NCBI GenBank assembly: GCA_029448655.1
Contig: JACCLO010000044.1
Coordinates: 1-64,000 of the forward strand
Length of the DNA stretch: 64,000 nucleotides
DNA from: Wolfiporia cocos
Lineage: Eukaryota > Basidiomycota > Agaricomycetes > Polyporales > Phaeolaceae
Direction of reading: 5' to 3'
Shown here piece after piece: positions 14,099-64,000 of this stretch (the first letter of the stretch is position 1; every line of letters begins with the position of its first letter). Below the pieces are notes generated by a model. The model was not told the origin of the DNA and ran no database searches. It saw only the letters and a program-made list of their open reading frames with translations. Both the position numbers and the translations under genes were made by a program.

Positions 14099-14439
14099 CG
14101 CCGTAGCGGGGTGGGATGAGGCAGGGCGTGCAAAGCCAGGAAAATATGGGACGAGCGTAGCGATCCAGCGAAAAGGAAAAGGCGCGAGACCGAGGGCGAC
14201 GACAAATGACGGCGGGTTTGAGTCCCCGCATGCGATCGATCGACGAGCGGTGCCGAATCTCGGGACATCCTAATAAGGGATCTCAATTGTGCGTACAGGG
14301 CAGGTCTGAAACGAATACAATACGAGACTCGAGCAACGGGAGGACGTACAGGATTGTGAAAGTTAGTTACATGTGTTATCACGCCCACACCGTCCGCCCT
14401 ATGCCTTAATTACTGCGTCTGTGTCCATCTTGTCTTCAT

Positions 14440-16468: not shown

Positions 16469-16847
16469 TATGAGTGATTGGCTCTCGTATGCATTGTTCG
16501 GACATTCTTGTCACTCTACGCCAGCTTTGGTTATGCTTCTTTCTTGTCTTGTACCATTATCGCATACCTCGCCCTGAAGACAAACGAGCGGCAAGGGTGG
16601 CTACTTTCTGCTAATGAGAAATATCATATACCATACATATACCAGCTATGTTTGAAGCGTCCGCAGAAGCACAAGCTTGTATTCTGGACAACGTCGGCTC
16701 GAATCGGCGTCTTAATTCAGAGATGTCTAGTAGCGCGTGCGTTGCGTCGCGTCACGTATTTGTGATGGATGTGACACTACGCGTTTCCGCGTCGCGCCTT
16801 GTTCTTGACAGCCATACTAGTTACTCCTTGTACACCCACCACTTGAA

Positions 16848-31200: not shown

Positions 31201-32280
31201 CTGTGCGAATTCTTGGGACTTCGTCAGCGCTTTCCTGACAGCATTGATGATTTGTATCTTTGTTCGGAACTTCTTTCGTGTTTCCCCTTTCTCTCCTATG
31301 ATCCTAGGGTTATCTTTTGCAAAGCGTCGGATCGCTTCGTACTCCTCAGGAGTATAGAGCCGCTGTGCTGTTTCTTCTGGCTGGTCCGTAGATCCAAATC
31401 CTTTCTCCCCTCGTTCTGTTTCATCTAGGTCCTCGACCTCCAAAATGTCGGGGGTTAGGTGTCGTTCGAAAATTATCTGGGCTATTCGCATGCCCGGGAT
31501 AATTCTATGTGCTTTGTCTGAATAGTTGAAGACGATGGCTCCGACGTCTCCTCGGTAGTCCGAGTCTATGATTCCGGCCTGTACTACCAGTCCGTGTCTG
31601 AGGGTGTTGCCTGATCGTCCGGCCAACCTTCCATACGATCCCTTCGGGATCTTCATTTTTACTCCTGTGGAGACGAGTTTCCATCCTCCGGCGGGAATCT
31701 CGGTTTCTTCTGCAGCGTAAAGGTCATACCCTGCGGCTTCTTGGGTTCCCCTTGTCGGAATTTTCCCTTCTGGAGCAACTACCATTTCCACCGTATCCAT
31801 TTGGATCGTGGCTTCCGGTTTCTTTTCTTCTGCCCCTAGTATTGATCGTACATCGACTGTTTGGTCCTTCCAGTCGATTGTGGGGTTTTCGTCTTTTAGC
31901 CATCCATACCCTAGAATCATATTCTCTGTTCCGATCGATCCTACCAAGAATCGGACCTTTCGCGTTTTCTGGGTCTTCGGATATCGTAGTAGTATGGTGG
32001 CTTCTCGGTCTATTCGCCCATCTTTGTTTTCTGTTCCGTCAACATTTTTGACGATAATCGGGTTCTTCAAGGGTTGCGTGGGCACCTTGTATTTTTCTAC
32101 CACTCTGCTGTGGATCAGGTTTGACATTGCTCCTGAGTCGATTAGTGCATTGCACTTCACGGGTTTTGCCAGCGTCATGATTACCGGAATGAAGAGGGAT
32201 CGATTCTTCTCGAACGAGGTAATTACATGCGCTGCTTTCTCGGAGGGTAAGACCGTGGGCTTCCCTCCTAGGCAAAATCC
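28297..32280 (-). CDS. pol: Element 1 pol: protease-dUTPase-RT-RNase H-integrase-chromodomain
   Basis: The frame is open upstream of its first ATG (32178) back to the gag end, consistent with -1 frameshifting. Domains by residue from that ATG: aspartic protease (ALIDSGAMSNLI, about 11-22); dUTPase about 132-266 with motifs AAGYDLYAAE, GRLAGRSG, GIIDSDYRGDV and RGEKGFGST; reverse transcriptase with YMDD (LVYMDDILIF); RNase H starting ETDASQFATGA; integrase with a zinc-binding HHCC region (GHPGIW ... CAICQQM), CSVDFVTDLP, SDRGPQF and the catalytic glutamate in DGQTERMNQ; then chromodomain EEYEVEAILADRW ... YFVKWKGYA. A TGA at 28876 interrupts the frame between integrase core and C-terminus, and one base is missing near 28343 inside the chromodomain. 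Confidence 0.93.
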
Positions 32281-34102
32281 TGTTCTTCTACGAGCCGTGC
32301 TAGGAGCTCGGGGTTCTTGGCTTTCAGAGCCCTAATTGCTGTGACCGCTCTGTTAGCGGTGACATATTCAGTCTCTTCTTCGGAGACTTCTTCGATGCGA
32401 GCTTCTTGCTCGGCTTCTTCTTCTTCGGTTTTTCGAGTAGTCCGCCTAGGGCGGGCTGGTTTCCTCGGCCTCTTCGGGCAGTCTCGCGACATATGTCCTG
32501 GCTGATGACAGGTGAAGCATTTTCCTTTCTTGATGTGATCGTCCCTTTCCTGGGTGGTCATTCGATCTACATCCATTGCGTTCGGATCTTTCGGTGCGGT
32601 TGTCTGTGGAGCACTAGTGCGTCCGTTATTCTGGTTCGAGGCTTGCCAAGCCTTTTTCTTGACAAACGGTTTGTCCCGTTTCAAGAATATCTTGTACGTA
32701 TTTTCATAGTACGAGGCAGCGGACTGCCATTCATCAATGGTTGCTGGTAGCGGTCGAACACCGATGATGTATCGGGTCGTGTGTTCGGGTAACCCTTTCT
32801 CAAAGAGGGTTATGAGCAACGCGTTTCCGTCCGCGCTGTATCGATCGTACTGGGCCTTTCCGGCCAAGTTGTTGAACTCGGTGATATAATCATCAATGTC
32901 CTTCCTGTCCTGGGTTACGTCCAGGATTTTCTTCCGCGCCTTCTGTACCTCTTCGATGGCTCCGAAGGCTTTCTGGAAGTCTGCATCAAACTGTGCAAGA
33001 CTAGGTGGGAAGAATCGTTTCGTCTGGGGGTTCGTGTAAACCCGGTGGTAATTTTGTTTCCACTGGCCTGTTTTCCCCTTGTTCGAAATATAAGAGAGGA
33101 TAAAGATCACTCTCTGAACGTCGTTCTGGAATGATGTTTCGTACATCGTAAACCAGGAATTGCACTGGTTTATGAAGTTCTGCATGTCAGATCGTTCCCC
33201 GTCGAATACGTCTGGGGGATTGATCTTTATCATCGGGGGTCGGTAGTACGGGTTTGGCGCCGGAGGTTGAGGCTGCGGCGCATTCGGTGGTGGAGGTCCT
33301 CCTCCTCCCGGGTATCCTCCACCTGGGTTTCCTGGGTTTCCTCCGGGGTTCCCTGGGTTTCCTCCAGGGTTTCCTCCTCCGGGGTTCGCGGGGGTTCCTC
33401 CTCCGAATCCTCCAGGAGGGGGGAATTCCCTCCTCCGAGTCCGAAGTTTCCTCCCAGTCCTCCTCCGCTTGTACCTGCGGAGGTTCGTCCAAATAGGCCT
33501 GAAGGCCATGTTCCTGGGTTTGTCGTTCCCATTCCTCCGCTTGGGCTAGTCCAAGACGGATTTCCTCCGCTACCCATTCCGGGTGCGTTCTGTGGGGGGT
33601 TTCCAAAGAGGTCTGTTCCTCCAGCCATAGGCCCAATCCCACTCTGCGCAAAAGCAGATATAAATCCTGGAGGGTCCTGTCCTCCGGTCTGGCTGTTATC
33701 TGTTCCTGTAAAATTTCCAGGATTTCTCCCATCATCTCCGATGCGCTCAATTCCTGCCATTCCTGTGGCGCCCGAAGGCTGATTCGTATTTCCATCGGCA
33801 TCGAAGGTTCTGTTGATGGTTTCGGTTTCGTTTTCGGTCAACGTCGCGGTTGACATCGGAGGGAGTTCTCCAAATCGTTCGAACGCTTCACGCGTTATTT
33901 CCCAAGCGGTCGTTCTTGCGGAGGGGTATACTTCTACCCACTTCGATGCCCTATCTTCTCTTGGAATGACAACAATTCCTCCGCGGTTACGGAAGGCTCC
34001 AATGGTGTCAGTCCACTCGTATCGGTTGAGTCTGTAGACTCCCTGAATGTCCTCGGGCAAGAGTTCAATCAGTCGTGCTGGGAATTCTGGTCCAAATATC
34101 AT
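32268..34102 (-). CDS. gag: Element 1 gag
   Basis: Starts at ATG 34102 (MIFGPEFPARLIELLPED) and ends at TAG 32268. A proline/glycine-rich linker (NPGGNPGNPGG repeats) precedes the capsid-like region (DVFDGERSDMQNFINQCNSW), with a single CCHC knuckle CFTCHQPGHMSRDC near the end. The frame shifts inside a C-run at about 33418-33424: one extra C would join both halves. Gag forms the particle and binds RNA through the knuckle. Confidence 0.9.
32274..32280 (-). promoter_or_regulatory. Candidate -1 ribosomal frameshift site between gag and pol
   Basis: The sense sequence G GAT TTT lies one codon before the gag stop (GAT TTT GCC TAG). Slipping back one base gives GGA TTT TGC and an open frame of 34 codons to the pol ATG and then the protease. 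The related heptamer G GAU UUA is a known frameshift site in a mammalian retrovirus (established knowledge); use here is inferred. Confidence 0.6.
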
Positions 34103-34899: not shown

Positions 34900-36648
34900 T
34901 AGTGATGTGCCAGGCCCAGCCCAGCTCAAAAGCCCCGGCTTCGGCCCGGCTTGGATGGCCCATGGCTTTTCAAAACCTCAGGCCAGGCCCTCATTGACAG
35001 CTCACGGCTTGGCCCGGCCTAGGTCCCAGCTTGGCCGCGGCCTACCACTGCTAAGATAATCGTCACTTTAGCTTCAGAGCTTGAGATTCACCTTTGCCAA
35101 ACCTTTCCCAGATGAAATAGAACCTTTAATCCTCCGATCTATAGTAGGATTAAGCATGAAATAATCATTCACTAGCGCAGCATTCAGTAGCGTGCCTGCC
35201 ATATGGGGGATCATATAGGCGCCCAAAAGTGAGTGGCAGGCTTCAACGTTGAGGACTTGACTTTTCTGTAGTTTTAAATAAACAAGATAGGTGCACAATG
35301 ATTGAGTTGAGCATATAACTGGCCTGTATGGGCTTATATTGTGCCTGCCAGATATTGTAGCCATTAAGATCCCTAGGCCAGGGCTCAACAGCTTGGCCTG
35401 GCCTGGCCTGTATCTCAGGCCGGGCCCTGGGCCGTCTCTGTCACAAGCCAATTTCCAAGCCTAGTAGAACATCCTAGGTTGACACCCCACTCACGCCTCT
35501 TGCACGCTAAAGCACTCCATCCAAGCCCAGCTGGATACGTACGGCAATGCTAGTAGAAGCCCTCCGATACACAAGTCACTACGGGCACTAGCAGACCACC
35601 AGCAGTCCGAACCTTACACCAGTCCCAGTCCCCGGCAGTCAGTACAATACTGCCTAGTCCATACAACCTAGTCATGGGCCACCTCTAGGAACCACCAGCG
35701 TGGCTAGCACAGCAGTAACCCCAAGACAATCCAGGTTACCAGCCATCGCACATACACTACACACTAACTAGAGGAATGACCTATATTATGCACGTGACCT
35801 AAACACTACGCCCAATGTCTCACATCTCTTACACCACAGACACTCGCCATTACTGGCATAGACATTCCCCATTACAGGCAGGCCCCGACCTGTATAGACT
35901 TCTGCCCGTGGGATGGCAGCAATCCCATACAAGCACTAGACCTATGCACCTACAGTCTACGAGTCTACGCCCTACGCCTTCCCTTCAGTACCGCAACCTC
36001 TGGGAACCCGGGCCGTGAACGATCGACCCTCAGTACCGTAACCTCGGGAACCTAGGCCACCAAAAGCACCTTCAGACCACATCTTGTCAAACCACGCCAT
36101 TGGAATGGTGCACCCCCTGCCTGGGATGGCAGCACATGACCTATGAGGAGCACTGGTCGTTATACCCTGATCGACGAAAACCACCGATCATTACACCCGA
36201 TCGAAGCACTGATCACCACCGCCATTACTGGTATCACCCGATCGACAAGAACCACTGATCGTAACCCGATCGATTGGCAACCCCCCTGATCCAATCCCAT
36301 CACACTACGTTGCTATGGACATCTCGCTACGTACCAGTGCTCCAATGCCATTACCGGCCCCATAGCTTAGACCAATTGTATACCAGCAAGTAGATGACCC
36401 CATAGTCACGCGAGCCCCCACATGTACAAACAGTAGTAATATATAAGCCAGACAGTCTCGAGCATAAACCTCAGACTTGTCTTGGCCTCTTCTGGCTAGT
36501 AGTCCCAAATCAGGAAGGCACCTTTGTGTGAGCCCCCTTCCCCTGGTTGAGTGCTAGTTAGTAGCGTGTGTCAGTCTCAAGCCGTGCTGTAAAGCCCAGC
36601 TTGGCCCGGCCCAGCTCATGGCCCAAAGCTGGGCCTGGCACATCACTA
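34900..36648. mobile_element. hAT-like non-autonomous DNA element 1
   Basis: Terminal inverted repeats TAGTGATGTGCCAGGCCC and its complement at 36641-36648, flanked by a perfect 8-bp duplication AAGTGGAT (34892-34899, 36649-36656), the size typical of hAT transposons. Subterminal regions are packed with GGCCC/GGGCC motifs. Without the nested solo LTR it is about 610 bp and encodes no transposase. Confidence 0.9.
35439..36573 (+). mobile_element. Solo LTR nested in hAT-like element 1
   Basis: 1135 bp, TGTCACAAGCC ... GTGTGTCA, with a perfect GTCTC duplication (35434-35438, 36574-36578). A TATA-like box (AATATATAA) lies near 36430. No coding sequence. Confidence 0.88.
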
Positions 36649-41691: not shown

Positions 41692-42083
41692 CATGCAAGA
41701 GCTGCGGCCGGAAGGACTGCACAAACATGGAGGGGTGATGCAATTGGAGGGTGCCAGCATCCAAGGTGGACAATAAGGGGGCTCAGAAATCTACTAGCGG
41801 CAACCCCCCCACACCTCATGGCAAAGGTCACATGGTCCAGGTCACCACAACAGAGATGTGGATCCCAGATGACAGTGACAACTCCATGGGCAACTCCACC
41901 GCCCATTCATCCGTGCGCATCACGGAGGTAGAGGAACCACTGGCCAGTACACCGGCTCCATCAACAGCCCCAATTGGTCAGCCACCGAATTGGGGCACTA
42001 CCATTATCCCATGGCATTCAGTTGCCCAGAAAACTCCTGACCATCCAGCTAGCGAGTCGAATTTTCGCCTTCAGCACATGTGA
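41692..42083 (+). pseudogene. gag: Element 2 gag, C-terminal part
   Basis: Starts inside a knuckle-like CKSCGRKDC, has an in-frame TGA after NMEG, continues with VPASKVDNKGAQ and ends at TGA 42081. The pol frame is -1 relative to it, with GAATTTT (42059-42065) as a possible slippage point. Confidence 0.6.
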
Positions 42084-44020
42084 ATCCTTGCCTATGTGTG
42101 CTGTGTACTAGTATAGTTGCCTGTACTGCTGACCTGCTTGTAAAAAATTGTGAAAATTTATATCACTATTACAAGAATCATGCATGTGATAAGTCCCGAT
42201 CTTTCCAGATCTGGGTTGACTTGTGGGTCTATGGTCAGAAAGTGCAAGGCTTGGCTTTAATCGATAGTGGAGCAACGTTATCAGTCATCAACTCAGACTT
42301 TGTTGACAAACATCGTCTAGTCACCCACGATAAGAAAGACCCTTTTTGGATTCATAATGCAGATGGATCATACAACAAAAATGGTCTCATCAATAAGTCA
42401 GTTAAAGGATTCATGCAACATGGCGAGCACAAGGAAAAGGTATTCCTTACCATCATGAAAATCCACAACCACGACCTTATCCTAGGATATGACTGGTTAA
42501 TTAAACATAACCCCACTATGGACTGGAACTCTGGCAGTCTGGTATATCGATGTGGGTCTGCATGCCCAGAAGCCTCAGAATCGTCCCCTGATTCGGAAGA
42601 AGTTGCACCCGATGACGAAGAGGACAATAATAACATCAGCAACATTTGGGATTCTGCGCTAGACACGATTGGAGATGGAAACCCTGATGATCCATTTATC
42701 AAGTGGATCGGTACCCTGTCCAATGAGGAATTGGGACTCCTCATGGGAATGGTAGGAGAAATCCACCAGAACAGACCAGAAGCTGCAACCGAAAAATGGA
42801 AGCAGCTTGTGCCTAAGGAATATTGGGAATTCGGCCCAATGGTATTTTCGCAAAAAGCATCCGAAAGGATGCCAACACGTAAGCCATATGATCATGCCAT
42901 CAATTTAATCGAAGGCACTCCATTGCCAACACTGGCCAAACCATATTCCCTCTTGCCAAAGGAAGAAAATTCCCTCCGTGACTGGATCGCTGAAGAAAAG
43001 CGAAAAGGCTACATCTGAGATTCAAGCTCCCCTATGGCCAGCCCAGTATTTTTCGTTGCCAAGAAAGATGGAACCTTGTGCATGGTAATCAATTACAGGA
43101 AGCTGAACGAAATAACTGTGGATAACAAGTACCCTATACCCCAGATATCGGACCTTATCAACCAACTCTCAGGTGCATCGATCTTTACTAAGATCGACCT
43201 GAGATGGGGTTACAACAACGTCCGTATCAAGGAAGGTGATGAATGGAAAACAGCATTCATTACTAAACAGGGGTTGTACGAAGCCATGGTTATGTATTTC
43301 GGTTTCAAGAACGTGCCAGGGACTTTCCAAGCAATGATGAACGACGTCCTAAAGGATTTCATTGCCACCGGAAAAGTCATAGTCTATCTGGACGACATAC
43401 TGATCTTTGGCAACGACTTAGCGGAACACCGCAAAATCACCAAGGCAGTCCTGAAAAGGCTGCGGGACAATGATCTATATGCCAAACCCGAGAAATGCTT
43501 CTTTGAAAAAAGTAGCATCGACTATTTGGGTATGATAATTTCTAAGGGCAGAGTCGAAATGGACCCCTCGAAACTATCAGGAGTATTAGATTGGCTGACC
43601 CCAACCAAGGTGAAGGAAGTTCAAGCCTTTTTAGGCTTTGCGAACTTCTATCGGCGGTTTATTCAGGACTTCTTGAAAATTGTGAAACCCCTGACAACAC
43701 TCATGAAGAAGTCGGAGAAATGGCATTGGGATGAAGCACAGGAAGAAGCTTTCCAAAAGCTCAAGGCGGCCTTTACAACTGCCCCCATCTTACATATTCC
43801 GGACAAAATTCAGAAATTCCGTATAGAAGCCAACACATCAGACTTTGCGACTGGAGCAGTCCTAACGCAATGGTCACCAGATAGTTGGAAATGGAATCCT
43901 TGCGCCTTCTATTCCACAGGCATGACTGCCCCGGAACGGAACTACAAAATTTATGACAAAGAGATGCTAGCCATAATTCGAGCATTAGAAGAATGGCAAC
44001 ATTATCTCGAAGGTCACCCG
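42059..44020 (+). pseudogene. pol: Element 2 pol, part A: protease, RT, RNase H start
   Basis: Protease ALIDSGATLSVINS; reverse transcriptase with INYRKLNEITV, TKIDLRWGYNN and YLDD (IVYLDDILIF); RNase H begins RIEANTSDFATGAV, where the first catalytic aspartate expected after EA is asparagine. A TGA at 43016 interrupts the frame (GYI*DSSSP). The sequence stops at HYLEG when the tandem array begins at 44021. Confidence 0.9.
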
Positions 44021-45110
44021 TGACACAGATGGCTCTGTGGGACTCACCAAGCCAGTATCCTGCGATGAACTAGGCGACTTAGGTGAGGAAGAGGTTATCA
44101 GACGCAGTAGGAGGTAGGAGGTTCTTCTACGGCGTACGCCGAGAAGAATAGAACTGAAGTTAAAGAGCGCTTGGCTCCTACTTATATACATTGTGTCGGG
44201 AGGGCACGTGCTACTAGCTAGCGGTTGCCTTACCGGGTTATGTGGCTTTGCCAAGTGGCGAAGCTTTATCTTATCTGATGTTTAGTTACTCTATCTAGAA
44301 TGGCCGTGGAAGGCCCTAATGGCCGACCCAATCGTAATAGAGGGATTATGTCTTATCTGTGATACTAACGCGGGCGCAGCCCGGGTATAGGTGAAGCCGG
44401 TTGCCGGATACCTTGCGGCATAATGGCGATTGGCCGTGCTTCGTTGGATGACCAAGGCGAGACGCCGAGGTCGTTATGCCATTGGACGGGTAGTACCGTG
44501 GCATGTGTTACAGCCCGGTCCGGATGGTTACCGGGGCATGTATTGGTCTTAGCCGTGAGGCGAGGACCGGTGTTTGGGCAGCGCCGTGATGGCAGAAGCC
44601 CGGGACTTGGAGAACGCCGAGTCCGTGAGATGGCCGAGAAGGCCGAGCCTATAGCGATATTGCCTTGATGCTAATATAGTGCTATTTGGCCGTGTTGCCA
44701 TTATTATGCGAAGGCGTGGCGCGCCTGAGGTGCCATTGTGATCAAGGATCTTATGGCGGTGGGAAGCCGGGAAGGCCGACCCAATAGTACAAGGCCGAGG
44801 CACTGTTTGACATGGGACATTATTATGCGAGCGTGCCGCGCTCGGCCTATCATTATGATCTACGATCTATGACGTGGCTGGTCTTGCTCTGACGGGCGAG
44901 ACCTTTATGACGTAGCTGTAACTATGCTATTGGACCGGAAGGTGCCGTAGCGTTATGTATGCTGGTCATGTGGTGATAAGCCCAGTTAAGAGCTTGTCGT
45001 GGTGGCAATGGGAGTTAACCCGTAGATAACTTGTAGTTAGACGTATAAATCCCAGGTAAATTGCTATAATCGTAGGAAAAATGCTGTAAGCCCCAGATAA
45101 ATCTGTGACA
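44021..45110 (-). repeat. LTR 1 of the tandem array
   Basis: 1090 bp, TGACACAGATGG to ATCTGTGACA. Differs from LTR 2 mainly by small deletions around 44787-44815. Confidence 0.93.
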
Positions 45111-45178
45111 TTACCCCCGCTTTAGGTTTCATCGTCCCTGATGAAACTATTCCTCATTGTGTACGTCCCAAGAGCGGT

Positions 45179-45393
45179 ATAACGCGTGATGACGAAGTGT
45201 CAAATGCCGTTATGGTGCTGCTTCAATTTGTCAATTGAACAGGGATAAATGGGAGTTTCAGGACTTGTGGTGGAACCTGAGCGTGGAAGGCGATTTTATT
45301 CCTTATAGTGATTTGTAACGCGTGATAGCGAAGTGCTAAATGCCGTTACTAGCGATTATCAACGCGTGATGACCGAAAGGTCAAATGCCGTTG
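45179..45393. repeat. Three hairpin repeats with compensating stems
   Basis: Units at 45179-45213, 45315-45349 and 45360-45393. Outer stems ATAACG/CGTTAT, GTAACG/CGTTAC, CAACG/CGTTG; inner stems GAC/GTC, AGC/GCT, GACC/GGTC with loops GAAGT, GAAGT and GAAA; constant single-stranded parts CGTGAT and AAATGC. The same trio recurs in copy 2 at about 50138-50352. Confidence 0.7.
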
Positions 45394-48300
45394 TTAGGGA
45401 GATGTAGTCGTGTTACTAGAGTGTGCTGTCATTGTGCATGCGGATCCTAAGAGGAGGGACTCTCCTGTTATCGCTGAAGGTGTTCTAGTGCCTTTTCGCG
45501 ACCTTGGTCGGATTATTGCTTTTGCTTATGACGTTACTCGTAGTAGAAGGCGATATGGAAATGGTCATCATATAGTGCCTTTGAATCTACTTGTAATCTG
45601 TATCTCCAATAGCTTGCCAAGCGTATTAGAGGGTGCATTGTGTCGTTGTACGTATTTCGGATAGCATTGTGCGATATTCCTTAGAGTGAGGGCTTCACTG
45701 TTAGCTCTGGAGATTTTCTAGTGTCTCTTCGAGCCCTTGGGCGGATATGTTGCTTATGCGTAGTACCCATTGAGTGTGACATAGCGGTGCTTTTTCGACG
45801 TCTATTGCCTAGCGGTGAATGGGATTGCAAGTTCCTTCGTTCGCGTGGCGGGTGTCTTAGGCTTTGTGCTTGTACAGGGGTAATCCTACTTTGTACGACT
45901 TATGCGGTTTGAACGGTTATTAAAGGGCGTCGCCTTATGAACGTTTATGAGGCGTCGCCTCCCTAGTATCGCAAGTACTAAGCGTGTGACATTTGTCAAT
46001 GCCCATTTGTTACAGGGGTTGTGTCCCCTAGTTAGATTGCTTCTACGTAGCGATCTCTTCGGAGTCGTAAGTTCCGGAATGAAGCTGTGCCTTCGTTGTT
46101 GTATGCACTTATTTATTAACGAGTAGGCTTCTCGTGTAAAACCCCATAGTATAAGTACTAATCATTGTGCATTATGGTCAATGCTTATGATTGTATTCCC
46201 TGATACTGTAGTGTCGTTGCCGTAGTGAGGCCTTATTGGGTAACCGTGAGAACATACATCCTTGTCAGGAGTTGTCTCGTATAGGTGTATCCCGTAAGGG
46301 CTGAAGTCCCATGGTGGCGATGACGGTAGTTTCCAATGTGCTTGTATGTCGTTAAAGTCGTTCTTCGATTGAGTATGACATTGTAAGCGTGGGAACTGGG
46401 ATGATCGTTGGGGAAGGGTATATTTCGCTATTGGATAGATAGCTACTATATTCCTATTACAGGGTTGTCGTCCATATACGAATAGGACAGTACGAGCATG
46501 AATGAGGGTAATCGGGCCTCTTAGTGCATGTCGTTTGTTGCTTTAATGACCGTAAGGTTCATTTGTAAGCGTGGGATAGTGGACTTGTTAAGGTCCTAGG
46601 TGCGAAATTAGGGTTTCCACCCCCTCTTTCACGTTTGATCTCCCGATCAAACCTATCCAGATGGTTTTGGTTTTTAAAGAGGTTAAACCGCCTCTATACC
46701 CAGATAAGGGTGGGTGGATGTGGGCCGAAGGTATTCTTGACGTATATCCATATACGGCTGTATCCAGTGTAGTCGCTCGCATATGCGACCAGATTTTTAT
46801 ACTAAGGTTTCCAAGCCCTAGTTTGTCGGAATCGAAGGGTTTTCCAGGCCCATATTCGATGTAGTGACGAGATGTAATCCTTTCTTGACGTAAGGATACA
46901 GATCCGGATTTATTTATTACGCGTCTCGACGGCGTAGGTTTCCGTAAACCAAGCAATTAAATGATAACCGATTGCCAAATCGGCTTGATTGAATTAATAA
47001 GGGGGACTCCCTTGTTATCTCTGGAAGTTTTCGAGTGCTTCTTCGAGACCTTTTGCGGACGATCGCATTGAGTTGCTAAGGTGTATTTTTCGAATTCGGT
47101 TATTCTCCCCACAGAGAAAAGTTGAATCGAAGTGAAATCAAAAGTGAGGTAGCTAGCCTCGTGACGAATTTTGCGATTGGCGTGCGAAATTGTCGACTTC
47201 AATACAGGGGGGGACCGGTTGGAAACCGGTGTAGATTCGGCGATTGTGCGAGAATGCCGAATGAAGTGTGATTCTAGAAGCCTTGCGGCCTCCGCTACAC
47301 TTCAAGGGAACGCGTATTAATAGCGTGTGTCCCTTGTTTTCCTTTCCTCTAACCCAGATTGCAAGATTCAATGAAGTAATCTTGTTGCGATCTGTTTGTA
47401 CATGGGTGGCTGGTGGAAACAGCGCTGTACCCAATTATTTATAGACGCTTGTCAGACGTCTCTTCCCAATCGGATGGTAATTTCCTTGTCAGGAATTCCA
47501 TTACCAAAAGGGGTGCCCCCGTTCTAAGGTTCTTTGTGACATGTGACCAAATGACAGATGCTCAATAACCCGAATCCCCTTTTCAGGAGCGAAGACCGAA
47601 GTCAAACGGGCGCCGATAGATTAAGAATCTTAATCGACTTGGTACTTAGGCATTCCCATAGTAATAATAGTTATAAGCATATGTTTGCCAAGCGTACGCG
47701 ATCCTACGTCGAGTAAGGTACTAGTATCGTTTTTCGATTGACTTATTGTACCTAAGACGTAAAAGGTTGCTTTATATGTACATAAGCGACCTTAACCAGG
47801 CTAGATAACCTGGGAACCAGCAGGTGACGCAGGATTTCCAGAGGCGAATACAAATGCTATTGGACGGTTTCTAAGCTACTTTACAAAGTAAGTAAGCTAC
47901 TAGGAGCCGCCACTAAAACTACATATTTATCTACTTATTGACTGGGATACCAGGGTACCTGAAAGAGAGCTCATCATCAGCGATCAACGCTGAGTGGTCA
48001 TGTCTAACACAAGAAGAACGGGGGCATGGTTAGGGGCGCCCTTGTCAGGACGCCGCGCGGAATTTAGCCGACAGGTGTCTTCATCGAAGCGCGCGACTTC
48101 CTTCTAGAAAGAGAGTCGGTGACTGCCAGCGCTTGATAAGCTGGGTCACATGGTTGGGAATAGGATACACAGCCCATTTCCTCGTGGAGATGAGCTGGAA
48201 AGTGGTCGCAGTATTACACCGCGACCGGTCCGCGCTTTAGTGGTAAGGCTTGCCATCTATAGCCACCTGGGTGTCACATCAGGGCTAAAAAACCATCCGT

Positions 48301-48962
48301 CGATCTAAGATCGCGCATTCACGAGCGCTCCACACATCAAGGATGGTGGGCAACGCCGCATGCTTCCGGTGGGGCCCCAACTCGGTTTAACCCAGGCTCG
48401 CACACCGAGCTGCCCGTAGGACTTACGCTATTGGCTACCGCGAGTGACCTCGGCTGGTTTGGCCTTGCGAGCCGCACCACCTCACCACTTGGATTCCCCG
48501 AAGGAGATCCCAAGCGGGCCCCTTACGCCTGGGGGGCGGCTTTGGAAGATTCCCACACCCAACTAAGGGAATACGCCGAAGCGCATATCCCTATGGGGAT
48601 CCTACTGGTAGTGTTGGGTCCCTGAACAGGGATTGCCAAGACAGGGGGCTGCGCGCACACAGGCAGACGGTCCCCTTTTCCCAATAGGCGGGTCTCAACC
48701 GCTGGCACCAGCAACCTTGTCAGGAAGCCGGCGCCTCTCCTTAACCCTGGAGTCCGGGTTCGCAGGACGCATGCTGCTGATTAGGCAAGCAGCGCCCCAC
48801 TGGGTGGCAGCAGGCCGCTAAGCCCGCCGCCGATGTATCCCAATCCGCAACCACGGAGCATACATCCCCTTTGCAGGAGAGTAGCGGCCCCTGCGCTATC
48901 TCAGACACCTGTTGGAGGAAAAACCCAGGCGCCACCAGTTAAGGAGGCGCAGGGGGGTAGGT

Positions 48963-48974
48963 AGTTCTATTCTT
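48963..48974 (-). promoter_or_regulatory. Self-priming PBS of the tandem element
   Basis: Sense AAGAATAGAACT, one base after the LTR end, is complementary over 12 nt to the predicted first transcribed bases in LTR 2. Confidence 0.75.
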
Positions 48975-48975
48975 A

Positions 48976-50069
48976 TGACACAGATGGCTCTGTGGGACTC
49001 ACCAAGCCAGTATCCTGCGATGAACTAGGCGACTTAGGTGAGGAAGAGGTTATCAGACGCAGTAGGAGGTAGGAGGTTCTTCTACGGCGTACGCCGAGAA
49101 GAATAGAACTGAAGTTAAAGAGCGCTTGGCTCCTACTTATATACATTGTGTCGGGAGGGCACGTGCTACTAGCTAGCGGTTGCCTTACCGGGTTATGTGG
49201 CTTTGCCAAGTGGCGAAGCTTTATCTTATCTGATGTTTAGTTACTCTATCTAGAATGGCCGTGGAAGGCCCTAATGGCCGACCCAATCGTAATAGAGGGA
49301 TTATGTCTTATCTGTGATACTAACGCGGGCGCAGCCCGGGTATAGGTGAAGCCGGTTGCCGGATACCTTGCGGCATAATGGCGATTGGCCGTGCTTCGTT
49401 GGATGACCAAGGCGAGACGCCGAGGTCGTTATGCCATTGGACGGGTAGTACCGTGGCATGTGTTACAGCCCGGTCCGGATGGTTACCGGGGCATGTATTG
49501 GTCTTAGCCGTGAGGCGAGGACCGGTGTTTGGGCAGCGCCGTGATGGCAGAAGCCCGGGACTTGGAGAACGCCGAGTCCGTGAGATGGCCGAGAAGGCCG
49601 AGCCTATAGCGATATTGCCTTGATGCTAATATAGTGCTATTTGGCCGTGTTGCCATTATTATGCGAAGGCGTGGCGCGCCTGAGGTGCCATTGTGATCAA
49701 GGATCTTATGGCGGTGGGAAGCCGGGAAGGCCGACCCAATAGTACAAGGCCGCGAGGCACTGTTTGTACATGTGGACATTATTATGCGAGCGTGCCGCGC
49801 TCGGCCTATCATTATGATCTACGATCTATGACGTGGCTGGTCTTGCTCTGACGGGCGAGACCTTTATGACGTAGCTGTAACTATGCTATTGGACCGGAAG
49901 GTGCCGTAGCGTTATGTATGCTGGTCATGTGGTGATAAGCCCAGTTAAGAGCTTGTCGTGGTGGCAATGGGAGTTAACCCGTAGATAACTTGTAGTTAGA
50001 CGTATAAATCCCAGGTAAATTGCTATAATCGTAGGAAAAATGCTGTAAGCCCCAGATAAATCTGTGACA
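48976..50069 (-). repeat. LTR 2 of the tandem array
   Basis: 1094 bp. In sense orientation it has TATATAAG about 33 nt before AGTTCTATTCTT (complement at 49099-49110), the predicted transcript start. Confidence 0.93.
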
Positions 50070-53000
50070 TTACCCCCGCTTTAGGTTTCATCGTCCCTGA
50101 TGAAACTATTCCTCATTGTGTACGTCCCAAGAGCGGTATAACGCGTGATGACGAAGTGTCAAATGCCGTTATGGTGCTGCTTCAATTTGTCAATTGAACA
50201 GGGATAAATGGGAGTTTCAGGACTTGTGGTGGAACCTGAGCGTGGAAGGCGATTTTATTCCTTATAGTGATTTGTAACGCGTGATAGCGAAGTGCTAAAT
50301 GCCGTTACTAGCGATTATCAACGCGTGATGACCGAAAGGTCAAATGCCGTTGTTAGGGAGATGTAGTCGTGTTACTAGAGTGTGCTGTCATTGTGCATGC
50401 GGATCCTAAGAGGAGGGACTCTCCTGTTATCGCTGAAGGTGTTCTAGTGCCTTTTCGCGACCTTGGTCGGATTATTGCTTTTGCTTATGACGTTACTCGT
50501 AGTAGAAGGCGATATGGAAATGGTCATCATATAGTGCCTTTGAATCTACTTGTAATCTGTATCTCCAATAGCTTGCCAAGCGTATTAGAGGGTGCATTGT
50601 GTCGTTGTACGTATTTCGGATAGCATTGTGCGATATTCCTTAGAGTGAGGGCTTCACTGTTAGCTCTGGAGATTTTCTAGTGTCTCTTCGAGCCCTTGGG
50701 CGGATATGTTGCTTATGCGTAGTACCCATTGAGTGTGACATAGCGGTGCTTTTTCGACGTCTATTGCCTAGCGGTGAATGGGATTGCAAGTTCCTTCGTT
50801 CGCGTGGCGGGTGTCTTAGGCTTTGTGCTTGTACAGGGGTAATCCTACTTTGTACGACTTATGCGGTTTGAACGGTTATTAAAGGGCGTCGCCTTATGAA
50901 CGTTTATGAGGCGTCGCCTCCCTAGTATCGCAAGTACTAAGCGTGTGACATTTGTCAATGCCCATTTGTTACAGGGGTTGTGTCCCCTAGTTAGATTGCT
51001 TCTACGTAGCGATCTCTTCGGAGTCGTAAGTTCCGGAATGAAGCTGTGCCTTCGTTGTTGTATGCACTTATTTATTAACGAGTAGGCTTCTCGTGTAAAA
51101 CCCCATAGTATAAGTACTAATCATTGTGCATTATGGTCAATGCTTATGATTGTATTCCCTGATACTGTAGTGTCGTTGCCGTAGTGAGGCCTTATTGGGT
51201 AACCGTGAGAACATACATCCTTGTCAGGAGTTGTCTCGTATAGGTGTATCCCGTAAGGGCTGAAGTCCCATGGTGGCGATGACGGTAGTTTCCAATGTGC
51301 TTGTATGTCGTTAAAGTCGTTCTTCGATTGAGTATGACATTGTAAGCGTGGGAACTGGGATGATCGTTGGGGAAGGGTATATTTCGCTATTGGATAGATA
51401 GCTACTATATTCCTATTACAGGGTTGTCGTCCATATACGAATAGGACAGTACGAGCATGAATGAGGGTAATCGGGCCTCTTAGTGCATGTCGTTTGTTGC
51501 TTTAATGACCGTAAGGTTCATTTGTAAGCGTGGGATAGTGGACTTGTTAAGGTCCTAGGTGCGAAATTAGGGTTTCCACCCCCTCTTTCACGTTTGATCT
51601 CCCGATCAAACCTATCCAGATGGTTTTGGTTTTTAAAGAGGTTAAACCGCCTCTATACCCAGATAAGGGTGGGTGGATGTGGGCCGAAGGTATTCTTGAC
51701 GTATATCCATATACGGCTGTATCCAGTGTAGTCGCTCGCATATGCGACCAGATTTTTATACTAAGGTTTCCAAGCCCTAGTTTGTCGGAATCAAGGGTTT
51801 TCCAGGCCCATATTCGATGTAGTGACGAGATGTAATCCTTTCTTGACGTAAGGATACAGATCCGGATTTATTTATTACGCGTCTCGACGGCGTAGGTTTC
51901 CGTAAACCAAGCAATTAAATGATAACCGATTGCCAAATCGGCTTGATTGAATTAATAAGGGGGACTCCCTTGTTATCTCTGGAAGTTTTCGAGTGCTTCT
52001 TCGAGACCTTTTGCGGACGATCGCATTGAGTTGCTAAGGTGTATTTTTCGAATTCGGTTATTCTCCCATCATATAATAGTTGATTCGAAGTGATATCATT
52101 ATTTAGGTTGCTAGGCTCGTTACGAATTTTGCTATTGGCGTTCGTTATTTTCGACTTCAATTCAGGGGGGACCGGTTGGAAACCGGTGTAGATTCGGCGA
52201 TTGTGCGAGAATGCCGAATGAAGTGTGATTCTAGAAGCCTTGCGGCCTCCGCTACACTTCAAGGGAACGCGTATTAATAGCGTGTGTCCCTTGTTTTCCT
52301 TTCCTCTAACCCAGATTGCAAGATTCAATGAAGTAATCTTGTTGCGATCTGTTTGTACATGGGTGGCTGGTGGAAACAGCGCTGTACCCAATTATTTATA
52401 GACGCTTGTCAGACGTCTCTTCCCAATCGGATGGTAATTTCCTTGTCAGGAATTCCATTACCAAAAGGGGTGCCCCCGTTCTAAGGTTCTTTGTGACATG
52501 TGACCAAATGACAGATGCTCAATAACCCGAATCCCCTTTTCAGGAGCGAAGACCGAAGTCAAACGGGCGCCGATAGATTAAGAATCTTAATCGACTTGGT
52601 ACTTAGGCATTCCCATAGTAATAATAGTTATAAGCATATGTTTGCCAAGCGTACGCGATCCTACGTCGAGTAAGGTACTAGTATCGTTTTTCGATTGACT
52701 TATTGTACCTAAGACGTAAAAGGTTGCTTTATATGTACATAGCGACCTTAACCAGGCTAGATACCTGGGAACCAGCAGGTGACGCAGGATTTCCAGAGGC
52801 GAATACAAATGCTATTGGACGGTTTCTAAGCTACTTTACAAAGTAAGTAAGCTACTAGGAGCCGCCACTAAAACTACATATTTATCTACTTATTGACTGG
52901 GATACCAGGGTACCTGAAAGAGAGCTCATCATCAGCGATCAACGCTGAGTGGTCATGTCTAACACAAGAAGAACGGGGGCATGGTTAGGGGCGCCCTTGT

Positions 53001-53929
53001 CAGGACGCCGCGCGGAATTTAGCCGACAGGTGTCTTCATCGAAGCGCGCGACTTCCTTCTAGAAAGAGAGTCGGTGACTGCCAGCGCTTGATAAGCTGGG
53101 TCACATGGTTGGGAATAGGATACACAGCCATTTCCTCGTGGAGATGAGCTGGAAAGTGGTCGCAGTATTACACCGCGACCGGTCCGCGCTTTAGTGGTAA
53201 GGCTTGCCATCTATAGCCACCTGGGTGTCACATCAGGGCTAAAAAACCATCCGTCGATCTAAGATCGCGCATTCACGAGCGCTCCACACATCAAGGATGG
53301 TGGGCAACGCCGCATGCTTCCGGTGGGGCCCCAACTCGGTTTAACCCAGGCTCGCACACCGAGCTGCCCGTAGGACTTACGCTATTGGCTACCGCGAGTG
53401 ACCTCGGCTGGTTTGGCCTTGCGAGCCGCACCACCTCACCACTTGGATTCCCCGAAGGAGATCCCAAGCGGGCCCCTTACGCCTGGGGGGCGGCTTTGGA
53501 AGATTCCCACACCCAACTAAGGGAATACGCCGAAGCGCATATCCCTATGGGGATCCTACTGGTAGTGTTGGGTCCCTGAACAGGGATTGCCAAGACAGGG
53601 GGCTGCGCGCACACAGGCAGACGGTCCCCTTTTCCCAATAGGCGGGTCTCAACCGCTGGCACCAGCAACCTTGTCAGGAAGCCGGCGCCTCTCCTTAACC
53701 CTGGAGTCCGGGTTCGCAGGACGCATGCTGCTGATTAGGCAAGCAGCGCCCCACTGGGTGGCAGCAGGCCGCTAAGCCCGCCGCCGATGTATCCCAATCC
53801 GCAACCACGGAGCATACATCCCCTTTGCAGGAGAGTAGCGGCCCCTGCGCTATCTCAGACACCTGTTGGAGGAAAAACCCAGGCGCCACCAGTTAAGGAG
53901 GCGCAGGGGGGTAGGTAGTTCTATTCTTA
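50070..53929 (-). repeat. Internal region copy 2 of the tandem array
   Basis: 3860 bp. By eye it matches copy 1 except for isolated one-base length differences and the dense substitution patch at 52068-52162. The longest frame is 158 codons minus (51915-52391) without an ATG start. Confidence 0.85.
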
Positions 53930-55029
53930 TGACACAGATGGCTCTGTGGGACTCACCAAGCCAGTATCCTTGCGATGAACTAAGGCGACTTAGGTGAGGA
54001 AGAGGTTATCAGACGCTATAGGAGGTAGGAGGTTCTTCTACGGCGTACGCCGAGAAGAATAGAACTGAAGTTAAAGGGCGTCAAGCCCCTACTTATATAC
54101 ATGTTTTATGCGGATGGCACGTGCTACTAACTAGTACTACCATTCCGGGTTATGTGGCTTTGCCAAGGGGCGAAGCGCTATCTTATCTGATGTTTAGTTA
54201 CTCTATCTAGAATGGCCGTGGAAGGCCCTAATGGCCGACCCGATCGTAATAGAGGGATTATGTCTTTATTGTGTTGCTTAACGCGGGCGCAGCCCGGGTA
54301 TAGGTGAAGCCGGTTGCCGGATACCTTGCGGCATAATGGCGATTGGCCGTGCTTCGTTGGATGACCAAGGCGGGATGCCGAGGTCGTTATGCTATTGGAC
54401 CGTTAGGTACCGTAGCATATGATATGTCTGGACCGAAAGGTAACCGGGACATGTGTTGGTCTTAGCCGTGAGGCGAGGACCGGTATTTGGGCAACGCCGT
54501 GATGGCAGAAGCCCGGGACTTGGTGAATGCCAAGTCCGTGGGATGGCCGAGAAGGCCGAGCCTATAGCGATATTGCCTTGGTGCTAATATAGTACTATTT
54601 GGCCGTGTTGGCATTATTATGCGAAGGCGTGGCGCGCCTGAGGTGCCATTGTGATCAAGGATCTTATGGCGGTGGGAAGCCGGGAAGGCCGACCCAATAG
54701 TACAAGGCCGCAAGGCGCTGTTTGTACATATGGACATTATTATGCGAGCGTGCCGCGCTCGGCCTATCATTATGATCTAAGATCTATGACGTGGCTGGTC
54801 TTGCTCTGACGGGCGAGACCTGTATGACGTATGCTGTAGTGTTGCTATTGGACGTGGTTGTACCGTAGCATTACGTAAGCTAGTCATGTGGTTGATAAGC
54901 CCAGTTAAGAGCTTGTCGTGGTGGCAATGGGAGTTAACCCGTAGATAACTTGTAGTTAGACGTATAAATCCCAGGTAAATTGCTATAATCATAGGAAAAA
55001 TGCTGTAAGCCCCAGATAAATCTGTGACA
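53930..55029 (-). repeat. LTR 3 of the tandem array
   Basis: 1100 bp, same ends as LTRs 1 and 2 but with many substitutions, concentrated around 54075-54165 and 54390-54440. Confidence 0.92.
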
Positions 55030-56364: not shown

Positions 56365-58253
56365 TGTCACAAATTATTCCACTAATAGTTTGGACTCCCT
56401 CGCTATAGGACGCACGCGCGGCGCTAGGCGTACGCCGCGCCTCTGCGCTGTAGCCACCTCCGGCGTCTCCCAGTTATTGCAGGTCACCTGGTCGTTTGGT
56501 TAGCGCTGTAGGGTAGCGCGCGCCTCAGGTACCGTCACATATGGTCACATTGTTACATGTCTCGTTACCTAGCACATGACCCATTAGATAGCGGTGCACA
56601 GACCACGTCTTTAGGGCGGTCTCGGTAGTATACACAAGCATGTATATAATACGACGAGATGCGGGCTTACACCCCATCTCTCAGATTCTCGACAATGGTG
56701 TATCACCCTTTCTCGCTTATAGCTGTGTGATCTCCTGGCCCGGGGCCCGTATCTCTCCTACCTTGTCTGTGAGGTTATCAGCTATGTCGGCGTACACTAG
56801 GAATGCGGGGATGCCCCATCCATGTAGCCTCTGCGCTCACCTCTGGTTGGTGCCTTATGGCCTCGATTGTAGGCCTGTATGGATCCCCCTGAGCCCAGGG
56901 GTCGCACAGACAGTGAGTCTGTGACATAATCTGAGAGATATCTTACCTCCCCTCCGGCGCCACCTGCGCTGGGGCCGAGGGTTCTCCACGTACAGGGTGC
57001 CATGGCAACGCGGCGGGGCAGCCTCTGGTAGAAGCACCAGAGGTCCGTAGTCTTACGAGCCCCCACGAAGCGTTACACCAGGCGAAGTACCCGTGCGGAG
57101 TGAGCAAGCAAGACCGCCCCCTTTCGAACGCAAGGTAGAAGGGGTCGACCGACGTAAGCCCCGTTTGAGGACCCGCCGCCGTCACCCCTGCAAAGGGAAT
57201 GCGCGCGCGTGTGGAGGTCTAGGGCAGTCCGGCCACTTACCCCTGGGCGGCAGGGTATCACCAAGAACTGATGATCAGTGGGTATGCGAAGGGTACCCGC
57301 AAGGGTACCCAACCCCACACCGACGATCACGAAGGTCAGAAAGCAATCCTCGACGACCGACTACTTCTCCGACAAAACCAACCACATACCCCGAGGTCGG
57401 TGCGCCACGCTCCATCTATGTCGGCGTCAGTCCTAGGAGGCGGAATGAACAAGCATTACCATCAACCTCCGATGGGCCCGCTCACCTCTGGAGGGCCTCG
57501 TTCACTCACGTTGCGGGATGGGGGGACGTTTTCTTCACTCCTCCACCGGCGGACGGACCGTGCACACGGACGCTCCCCACCTTACGTTGCAAAGGATGGG
57601 CCGTGTGTCAAACAAGCAACCAAGGATGCGAGGGTCGTAGGAAGATAGGTAGAACGTCAGGGACGACGTTTTTCGAGAGGGGGGGTAATGTCACAACTTA
57701 TTCCACTATGCAGTTTGGACTCCCTCGCTATAGGACGCACGCGCGGCGCTAGGCGTACGCCGCGTCCTCTGCGCTGTAGCCACCTCCGGCGTCTCCCAGT
57801 TATTGCAGGTCACCTGGTCGTTTGGTTAGCGCTGTAGGGTAGCGCGCGCCTCAGGTACCGTCACATATGGTCACATTGTTACATGTCTCGTTACCTAGCA
57901 CATGACCCATTAGATAGCGGTGCACAGACCACGTCTTTAGGGCGGTCTCGGTAGTATACACAAGCATGTATATAATACGACGAGATGTGGGCTTACACCC
58001 CATCTCTCAGATTCTCGACAATGGTGTATCACCCTTTCTCGCTTATAGCTGTGTGATCTCCTGGCCCGGGGCCCGTATCTCTCCTACCTTGTCTGTGAGG
58101 GTTATCAGCTATGTCGGCGTACACTAGGAATGCGGGGATGCCCCATCCATGTAGCCTCTGCGCTCACCTCTGGTTGGTGCCTTATGGCCTCGATTGTAGG
58201 CCTGTATGGATCCCCCTGAGCCCAGGGGTCGCACAGACAGTGAGTCTGTGTCA
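56365..58253 (+). mobile_element. TRIM-like non-autonomous LTR element
   Basis: 1889 bp with a perfect GGTCT duplication (56360-56364, 58254-58258). LTRs 56365-56926 and 57689-58253 are nearly identical; the 762-bp centre has a self-priming PBS (AATCTGAGAGAT, 56928-56939) and a polypurine tract (GAGAGGGGGGGTAA, 57675-57688) but no gag or pol. The 219-codon ORF crossing the centre is proline/arginine-rich and not convincing. Mobilised in trans, presumably by a chromovirus. Confidence 0.92.
56928..56939 (+). promoter_or_regulatory. Self-priming PBS of the TRIM-like element
   Basis: AATCTGAGAGAT is the exact complement of ATCTCTCAGATT (56676-56687), which starts 33 nt after the TATATAAT box at 56643. 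Confidence 0.8.
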
Positions 58254-58258
58254 GGTCT

Positions 58259-59585
58259 ACTCTTGTACCATAACAAGATCTACGTTCCCAAGGCACCAGA
58301 AGAGCTTAGAAATAAGGTCTTACAATTACACCATGACCACCCTACTGCAGGGCATATGGGGAGATGGAAGACATACAAACTCATCTCACGTAATTACTGG
58401 TGGCCAGGACTAACCAACTCGGTAAAGAAATACATACAGGAATGCGACACATGCCAGCAAATGAAGAATCGCCCGCAAAAGCCATATGGACCCCTGATAC
58501 CTAACGAAGTACCAGAAGCCCCATGGGAGATAATAACCATGGATTTCATTATGTACCTACCCAAGTCGAAGATAGACAACAAGGTGTATGACGGAATCAT
58601 GGTTGTAGTCAATTGCTTGACCAAGCGAGCATGCTTCTTCCCCATCTCCAGCAAATTCGGAACAAAGGATCCCGTAAGAGTCCTATACAGAAGGTTTTAC
58701 CCAATACATGGGCTACCTAAACGTATCATTTCCGATCACGGAGTGCAGTTTGCATCCAAACTATTCGGCGAATGGTGTAAACTGCTAGGGATAGAACATG
58801 CCATGACTATGGCATATCACCCACAGGCAGATGGACAGATGGAAAGAATGAATCAGACACTTGAACAATACCTCAGATGCTATGTAAACTCGTATTGCAA
58901 AGACAATTGGTCTCAATTCCTGCCTACGGCGGAATTTGCATACAACAACGCAGCGTCAGAGACTACCAAGATGTCACCATTCTACGTCGAGTTGGGAAGG
59001 CACCCAAAGGCTGGGCCAGCAGATTTAGCTATTCAGGCAAAAGCAGACCTTAATGAAATTGCAACCGATCGTTGGAACGCTCAGGAGCAAGCCAAAGCCG
59101 CAATGCAGTTAGCAGCTGACAGTATGAAGTGGTATTACAATCAATCGATCCAGAAAGTACCCTTCAAGGTTGGAGACAAGGTTATGATAGACGTAAGGGA
59201 TTACCAAACATCCGAAAGAAGTTTGGCCCCCAGGTACATCGGCCCGTTCAAAATAGTCGAACAACTGTCACCCGTGACTTTCAGACTACACATGGATGGC
59301 CAATACCGAGCCTATCACCCGGTCTTCCATGCGTCAAAGCTAACACCATATACCGGCAAGGAAGAAGCTCCAGAACCAGATAAGTCAGGAGAATACGAAG
59401 TGGAGCAAATACTCAACCACAGATTCACACCCTCAGGAAAACTACAATTCCTGGTGCGATGGTTAGGGTACTCCATGGGAGAAGACACATGGGAATATGA
59501 AGATGACTTCGTCAACACTAAGGAGTTGGTAGACGAATACAAGGCAGAACATGCCCTTAACGCACATACCGCTCCGCGAAGATGA
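58259..59585 (+). pseudogene. pol: Element 2 pol, part D: integrase and chromodomain
   Basis: Zinc-binding region HHDHPTAGHMG ... CDTCQQM, catalytic core MDFIMYLP, SDHGVQFASKLF and the glutamate of DGQMERMNQ, then GPKR-like linker and chromodomain GEYEVEQILNHRFTPSG ... FLVRWLGYS ... DTWEYEDD. The frame ends at TGA 59583 after APRR. Integrase inserts the cDNA; the chromodomain may steer it to heterochromatin. Confidence 0.92.
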
Positions 59586-60317
59586 CACACCCACAATATT
59601 CAAGTATTCGAACCAGATGACAACCCAGACTGGAAAGTTGGGGATTGTTATCTATGGCCAGATGATTGGCCACTGCAGAGAGGTGAATTTACTCCGGAAG
59701 AATGCAAGAAAGTACGGAAGTGGTTAGTACGGGACAAATTCGGCAACTCCGTAGAAGAAGGCACTTGCTTCAACGAATATCTCGAATTCGCAGTAGGACC
59801 CCAGGGCACATATCCAGAAAGAGGCACTGAACATGCCACCGGATTTGACATCTACTCAGCCGAAGCTACCAGGATAAACCCTCACACCACCATGCTCGTG
59901 AAAACAGACCTAAGAATCCTATTCCCTTATGGATTCAGCGGCAAACTGGAGACACATTCTAGCATGGCGAAGAAGGGCATACAGGTACAAGGCAGAGTCA
60001 TAGACTGGGATTACTGTGGAGAAGTGATAGTCATGCTCTACAACTTCACCGGATATCCATACATGGTTAACCATAGGGACAAGATAGCACAATTACTTCT
60101 GCAACCTGTCCCTCAACCAGAAATCCACCATAGTACAACCTACATGTACAATCAACAATACTTGAAGGACACAGCTCGTGGTGACAAAGGCTTTGGTCAT
60201 ACTGGTAGACACTTGGGAGAAGTCAAAATACTCCCTCATGACTATGAGGATTGGGACCGCCTGATGGAGCCCTCAGCGAGCAAGTGGCAAGATGTCGAAC
60301 CACCGATCACCGAGTAA
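59586..60317 (+). pseudogene. Element 2 3'-terminal dUTPase domain
   Basis: In the same frame as pol, directly after its TGA: a linker (WKVGDCYLWPDDW), then dUTPase motifs HATGFDIYSAEA (motif 1), GKLETHSSMAKKGIQV (motif 2, degenerate), GRVIDWDYCGEV (motif 3 with the catalytic aspartate), and RGDKGFGHTG (motif 5). dUTPase hydrolyses dUTP so that uracil is kept out of cDNA. Reading the TGA as CGA would make it the C-terminal domain of Pol. Confidence 0.85.
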
Positions 60318-63359: not shown

Positions 63360-64000
63360 TGTCACAGATTCTGAAAAGAGGTACCCCCCCCCTGTCTCAA
63401 ACCCACGTTCTTGGGTAGTACCCCATCATGTGTCTTTGTATGGACTTAGCAGTGTAGCGTAATGGTACAGGTCGCCCCACCCATAGATGGTCACATGGTC
63501 AGTAGCTTAGATACTACAGCACATGACTTAGGTAGCACTCAGCAATACGCACAGACCCTGCCTTTAGGGTGGGTCTCTAGTATACAGTGACAGTGTTCCT
63601 CATGTACTTAAGCTGTGACACTCTGGGGCTTACTCCCCAGAGTGTCACAGATATATTACTGTTGAATTCACCCTCACTATAGCTTTATGAGCACTGCTGT
63701 ACATGCATGTGCCCCTCTACACTATGGTATTCCTCTCCCCTTCGTCCTGTAGTTACTGTAACAACCCTGCACCACTCGTCGATCAGCGCCCTTAGGGTAG
63801 GCGCACGTGCCTCTACCCATAACATGGTCACACTTTCATTACATACTCATGACTAGTTACTGTTATGCCTGACCTCATAGTTACTGCGCACAGATCAGCA
63901 CTTCAGGGTAGACACACTAGCGTACACGCAGATGTATATAAAGTATGACAAATGAGGCCTTATGCCTCATTCTTAGGATTTTTGGCAATTGGGCCTAACC
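63360..64000 (+). repeat. LTR-derived sequence at the window end
   Basis: Starts TGTCACAGATTCTG. Two promoter-type palindromes occur: CTGTGACACTCTGGGG with a perfect 16-bp partner (63613-63650) and AATGAGGC-CTTAT-GCCTCATT (63951-63971) after TATATAAAG, followed by TTTGGCAATT. At least two LTR promoters are therefore present; boundaries run off the window. Confidence 0.45.

Follow-up and report, generated by a model that had tools for sequence, protein, structure and literature searches.

A transition-free substitution patch in one copy of a tandem LTR element of Wolfiporia cocos is most likely an assembly artefact

One of the two internal regions of a tandem LTR element in Wolfiporia cocos holds a 95-bp patch of dense substitutions among which there is not a single transition. 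We analysed the whole stretch of DNA in which the patch lies (64,000 nucleotides; hereafter the window) together with copies from the rest of the genome, and established the existence of the patch, its polarity, its uniqueness among the scored copies, its spectrum and its length, as well as the presence of two extra patches outside the element. Most likely the patch is an assembly artefact and does not reflect a new way of mutating DNA. The explanation that we favor, and consider probable, is a local consensus error that arose when short reads, likely from a two-colour instrument, were polished into a long-read assembly.

Results

The patch and its host element

The patch occupies 52068-52162 (minus strand) in internal copy 2 and differs from the same interval of internal copy 1 (47110-47204) by 20 substitutions over 95 bp. 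Going from copy 1 to copy 2, the plus strand has ten A>T, eight G>T, one C>A and one C>G. On the minus strand, on which the element lies, copy 2 has A at 18 of the 20 sites, where copy 1 has T at 10 and C at 8; at the remaining two sites copy 2 has T and C, both against G. Neither transitions nor internal indels were found within the 95 bp of the aligned copies. A sequence-only reading of the window had described a dense, transition-free patch with a minus-strand bias towards A in copy 2, and both features are real, although its 21 differences come down to 20 and its 19 cases of A to 18 (eight rather than nine against C). It had also described the remainder of the ~4.95-kb repeat unit as differing by short indels only, which held in our alignment up to 49061/54017; these indels are at 44795, 44809, 44814, 46834, 47207, 47784, 47807, 48173, 49015 and 49026.

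The hairpin that the same reading placed beside the patch (ACCGGTT-GGA-AACCGGT) can be read at 47214-47230 in copy 1, upstream of the patch interval on a minus-strand reading, and at 52171-52187 in copy 2, where it adjoins the patch. A G6 run in copy 2 (52165-52170) has one G fewer than the G7 run of copy 1 (47207-47213), and near the patch there are one-base deletions, five within the 3.5-kb locus. In two copies from other contigs (C35:37947 and C55:43990), the aligned length is the shorter one of copy 2 and the score, though slightly higher, is that of a patch-free sequence; both appear to have the G6 run without the patch. A 158-aa stop-to-stop frame of copy 2 (51915-52391) runs across the patch and falls below 150 aa in copy 1, an internal region in which no stop-to-stop frame of at least 150 aa was found.

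The host element (44021-55029, minus strand) is arranged LTR-internal-LTR-internal-LTR. Its parts are LTR 1 (44021-45110, with ends TG...CA), internal copy 1 (45111-48975; 3,865 bp), LTR 2 (48976-50069), internal copy 2, which holds the patch (50070-53929), and LTR 3 (53930-55029). LTR 2 is the same as LTR 1 apart from short indels, and over its initial ~85 bp it is also the same as LTR 3 save for two one-base indels. LTR 3 is about 8% off LTR 1 (blastn identity 92.0%), and beyond the first ~85 bp, from 49061/54017 on, it differs from LTR 2 by mixed substitution types; judged from the alignment, its differences from LTR 1 and LTR 2 are ordinary divergence.

LTR retrotransposons are marked by LTRs that end in TG...CA and by a target-site duplication. 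The host element of the patch has both, as it ends in TGACACAG...TGTGACA, with TG...CA termini, and CCCG stands at both outer flanks of its LTRs (ACCCG if the final A is assigned to the target site). Because CCCG is found on both outer sides, the element looks like a single insertion with a later duplication of its internal part, presumably by unequal LTR-LTR recombination, and LTR 2 may be the crossover product. The number of internal copies differs among units of the array described below: one in contig C7, two in C39 and, among the matches listed, three within ~12 kb in C31. The element appears in its turn to sit within a Ty3-type element, with protease and reverse transcriptase frames on one side (42053-44023) and an integrase with a chromodomain (58200-59585) and a dUTPase (59586-60317) on the other.

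Some further features of these elements deserve mention. A 10-mer with self-complementary ends, CCTTGTCAGG, occurs eight times in the window against 0.09 expected and is there exclusive to the LTR element, with four occurrences per internal copy (46260, 47484, 48040 and 48715 in copy 1; 51219, 52441, 52995 and 53669 in copy 2). By eye, some of these sites lie within longer hairpins that have differing arms. An inverted-repeat finder returned just two palindromic pairs in internal copy 1 at the settings used, and hairpins were assessed by folding and by eye. A dUTPase domain is present in two Ty3-type elements of the window (28876-32331, minus strand, and 59586-60317, plus strand), in one of which it lies upstream of the reverse transcriptase within one frame. 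Neither the window nor two additional stretches gave an Rfam match at the gathering score.

Copies elsewhere in the genome and the polarity of the change

The window is part of a 92,914-bp contig (C39) in a genome of 64.4 Mb and 76 contigs. Since C39:74001-92914 realigns to positions 81-18991 of the window (identity 99.95-100%), the repeat period in this contig is ~73.9 kb, and spacings computed from match positions in other contigs are ~67-83 kb. The macro-repeat is spread over 41 listed contigs (C7, C10 and many of C21-C65), which measure 77-137 kb where the length is known, and the array also extends into the 1.27-Mb contig C7. It may be a true multi-megabase array or may in part be assembler redundancy.

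Of 195 candidate matches to the region of the patch, 40 were scored, so that it has at least 40 copies when copies 1 and 2 are counted in. Thirty loci were fetched; apart from copy 2 (L001) and copy 1 (L014) themselves, all other 28 are identical to copy 1 across 47110-47204, which we took as the ancestral, majority state. When the genome was searched with the patch sequence, 40 of 135 candidates were scored: the patch itself at 100% and a further 39 at 83-84%. As the other copies match copy 1 and the patch is private, copy 2 is taken as the derived copy, in which T and C on the minus strand became A. A later homogenisation of every other copy is unlikely. The window by itself could not decide between the directions that the sequence-only reading had considered, since two copies give no polarity; this was supplied by the genome copies. 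They also bear on the outcome that this reading had named as fatal to its observation, an ordinary old subfamily with mixed substitutions: no other scored copy carries the patch.

Two further patches in a second contig

We compared all 50 fetched loci with the window (298.5 kb fetched, of which 275.9 kb aligned), defining a cluster as at least four substitutions spaced no more than 40 bp apart. L001 and L014, which come from the window itself, show nothing in this comparison. Two clusters are free of transitions and indels. Both are in contig C36, on the plus strand and outside the LTR element, at positions where the window itself is unaltered: one has 10 substitutions (window-equivalent 5121-5169; hereafter C36-5121) and the other seven (window-equivalent 63668-63733; hereafter C36-63668). 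The former is unique among 40 scored of 64 candidates and the latter among 40 scored of 50. Because these two patches lie outside the element, the cause of the patches is not specific to this retroelement. One-base deletions occur near C36-63668 as well, and near C36-5121 there is just one two-base deletion, ~390 bp off.

Most other clusters contain transitions and transversions mixed, with indels inside, as expected for diverged LTR or allele copies. Clusters of this sort around window position 48604-48847 in L003, L013 and L021 have 12-14 transitions among 23-26 substitutions together with 3-9 indels, and are, by this composition, alternative alleles with ordinary divergence. There are also five short clusters of transitions only (L031, L041 and L049). 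Repeat-induced point mutation (RIP) leaves C>T and G>A transitions, and two of the transitions-only clusters, found at 35136-35434 against L031 and L041 (11/11 and 4/4), are as RIP would leave them.

Private indels (137 over 241.5 kb of alignment) are concentrated in a few loci. At one locus near the start of the large contig C7 (C7:1-10000, L048), indels take up 50 columns of a 10-kb stretch that has 7 substitutions; 46 of these columns and 7/7 substitutions are in window-equivalent 9559-11801, and this error-rich part resembles an unpolished long-read consensus.

Spectrum and shape of the three patches

For each patch we assigned a reading direction, minus for the C39 patch and plus for both C36 patches, which was picked after seeing the data. 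Read in this way, the three patches have 37 changes between them, none of which is a transition: 14 are T>A, 15 are C>A, 7 are G>T and 1 is G>C. Relative to the bases available, 14/70 T, 15/57 C and 8/35 G were changed, so that each non-A base was altered at 20-26%, against 0/48 A (Fisher p 4.6e-5).

In two-colour chemistry, A is labelled with both dyes, C with red and T with green, and G is dark, according to PMC13218037. Scored by this code, 37/37 changes are a gain of exactly one channel, with zero losses and zero double changes; the opposite direction gives 22 gains and 15 losses. We simulated 37 changes as random transversions in 20,000 trials, with the better direction chosen per patch to allow for that choice, and obtained a mean of 20.0 and a maximum of 29 single-channel gains. 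The observed pattern is thus not a matter of chance, as the simulated maximum of 29 falls short of the 37 observed. The lack of transitions is explicable in the same terms, since A/G and C/T swaps need both channels to be altered.

Patch lengths are 95, 49 and 66 bp. The patches stop sharply where the 3' end is presumed to lie, and changes in their interior are weakly skewed to the same side (mean relative position 0.59, p 0.04). The 60 nt on each side of every patch were folded and compared with 4,000 random 60-mers. Upstream in the read direction, the folding energy is -12.5 kcal/mol for the C39 patch (top 2.6% of random 60-mers), -19.4 kcal/mol for C36-63668 (top 0.1%) and -2.7 kcal/mol for C36-5121 (top 86%), which has no stable hairpin there. 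Thus, 2/3 patches are preceded by unusually stable hairpins, and the 60 nt on the 3' side are not stable in any patch (top 74%, 70% and 99%). By eye, the first change of C36-5121 falls inside a TGGGCGCCCA palindrome.

We also tried a superposition with one shift, in which slippage at the C7 run would add base i to base i+s, for every non-zero s between -6 and +6. The best shift was not the same in the three patches (15/20 changes at -3 for C39, 7/10 at +2 and +3, and 6/7 at +1) and none suited them all, and this candidate was rejected.

Discussion

Given a long-read assembly polished with short reads, in a repeat unit present dozens of times, the most likely scenario is that one bad short read, probably of two-colour chemistry, ran along the minus strand across the hairpin and the C7 run and there lost phase or took up background signal. 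Single dye signals would then be gained, with T and C being read as A, and G as T or C, up to the end of the read at 47110, and the read would have prevailed in the consensus of copy 2. The patch would therefore be the low-quality 3' part of an erroneous minus-strand short read. The platform, the involvement of a single read, its direction and the polishing step are what we infer here. Among the options of the sequence-only reading, a local consensus error is the one that the evidence favors.

Our reasoning for this is that: (i) an artefact would be expected to give private patches that are not bound to a locus, and we found three patches, two of them outside the element; (ii) such a patch should lie within one short read, with errors rising to an abrupt end, as is seen here with a weak trend (p 0.04); and (iii) precedent exists for the component steps. 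Illumina miscalls are reported downstream of inverted repeats and of GGC motifs (Nakamura et al. 2011, as cited in PMC3622629), and the authors of Polypolish describe unreliable alignment of short reads within repeats and the introduction of errors by several polishers (PMC8812927). The single-channel gains at 37/37 changes, the stable folds ahead of two of the three patches, the long-read-like error segments elsewhere in the array and the contrast with the mixed clusters of ordinary divergence were likewise counted in favor of this explanation. The four-colour HiSeq and other platforms treated in extracts from PMC4787001 show a preference for false G and T for G, a spectrum unlike that of the patches.

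Several observations weigh against this explanation. The best-documented NovaSeq artefact is a loss of signal, giving T>G and poly-G, and T>A is merely inconsistently elevated on that platform (both from PMC13218037), whereas the patches consist of signal gains. Double gains, which would appear as G>A, number 0 among 35 G. C36-5121 lacks a stable upstream hairpin and has few deletions near it. Finally, there are three patches in total, and the two-colour idea was formed on the same three.

A different base-calling or assembly artefact, for example one that arose on another platform, from damage to the template or from a consensus of low coverage, is possible but rather unlikely. It would be in keeping with patches that are private and transition-free and that lie in a many-copy array with error-rich segments. 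However, the errors at the start of contig C7 are mostly indels (50 columns against 7 substitutions) and the patches are substitution-only, and the rule of single-channel gains already accounts for 37/37 changes.

The best biological rival to an artefact is bypass of abasic sites by the A-rule, a real clustered mutation in which purines are lost beside a hairpin and A is inserted opposite, giving purine>T and, if both strands are affected, pyrimidine>A. This option had been raised from the sequence alone as purine-to-T change. In its favor, 36/37 changes are purine>T or the complement, and two of the three patches adjoin a strong hairpin. Insertion by the A-rule is documented in E. coli, in human cells and in duplex DNA of yeast (PMC4167244), which also speaks for it. 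We nevertheless regard it as improbable, as the C>G change is left unexplained, every patch is single among the scored copies, and the C36 patches require both strands to have been affected within 49-66 bp. Within the latter, plus-strand A is altered at 0/25 and plus-strand G at 6/20. In addition, some 18 abasic sites in 95 nt of one strand of one copy would presumably call for an unknown enzyme, and in single-stranded gaps of yeast it is C rather than A that is reportedly placed opposite abasic sites (PMC4167244). A real local hypermutation with a single direction (pyrimidine>A and G>T with A untouched, in 50-100-nt tracts often beside hairpins of a large tandem array, driven by enzymatic base loss followed by the A-rule and free of transitions) has, in our judgement, only a slim chance of being correct.

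It is very improbable that copy 2 represents an old allele or a member of a diverged subfamily, or arose by conversion from such a sequence. Alternative alleles do exist in the array (L003, L013 and L021), and the copies seen were the 40 scored per search. Against this, the patch is absent from the other scored copies, it contains no transitions and its flanks are free of substitutions for kilobases. An old subfamily or gene conversion is disfavored because no donor was found among the scored copies.

Adenine-directed mutagenesis of the kind seen in diversity-generating retroelements (DGRs), through errors of reverse transcription during copying of the element, we find scarcely credible. In DGRs, the adenines of a template repeat are the substituted positions, and a template/variable repeat pair is accompanied by a DGR-type reverse transcriptase nearby. 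The product on the minus strand is indeed A at 18/20 positions and the element is flanked by LTRs, but the polarity is reversed: ancestral minus-strand adenines were altered at 0/23 (0/48 over the three patches), it was T and C that became A, and the other two patches lie outside the element. This also speaks against error-prone synthesis at adenines as first suggested for the window, where a DGR had not been claimed. Two of the 10 frames scanned (of 41 listed) have a reverse transcriptase domain, and both look like pieces of LTR-element pol, since RNase H, aspartic protease or dUTPase or integrase domains accompany it within the frame or in a neighbouring one. RIP or editing by a cytosine deaminase is ruled out by the 0 transitions in 37 changes.

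If the patches are artefacts, as we favor, their value is methodological: a transition-free patch with one base that is never changed when read one way would be a fingerprint of short-read error, and such an error, once frozen into the consensus of a repeat, can mimic a new mutagenesis system. If, on the other hand, accurate reads proved the patches to be true, they would represent a new kind of clustered transversion hypermutation.

With regard to known systems, the likeness to DGRs is superficial and consists of a bias towards A on one strand of one of two near-identical copies; here A is the product and not the substrate, and patches also occur outside a retroelement. A-rule bypass of abasic sites shares with the patches the purine>T and pyrimidine>A transversions without transitions, and differs in the one C>G, in the absence of plus-strand A>T from the C36 patches, in the extreme local density and in that the patches are private and lie in an error-prone part of the assembly. 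The polishing of repeats with short reads, as described in PMC8812927, resembles the present case in that errors are left or introduced in repeat copies, although that benchmark is bacterial. In the NovaSeq two-colour artefact, as presented in PMC13218037, it is likewise the state of the dye channels and not DNA damage that explains the errors, mainly as T>G from loss of signal where the patches are gains towards A. The inverted-repeat and GGC error of Illumina instruments (Nakamura et al. 2011 via PMC3622629) is described there for GAIIx, MiSeq and HiSeq data, as opposed to the finished consensus and the two-colour gain rule encountered here, and has in common with our patches a one-stranded clustering of miscalls beyond an inverted repeat.
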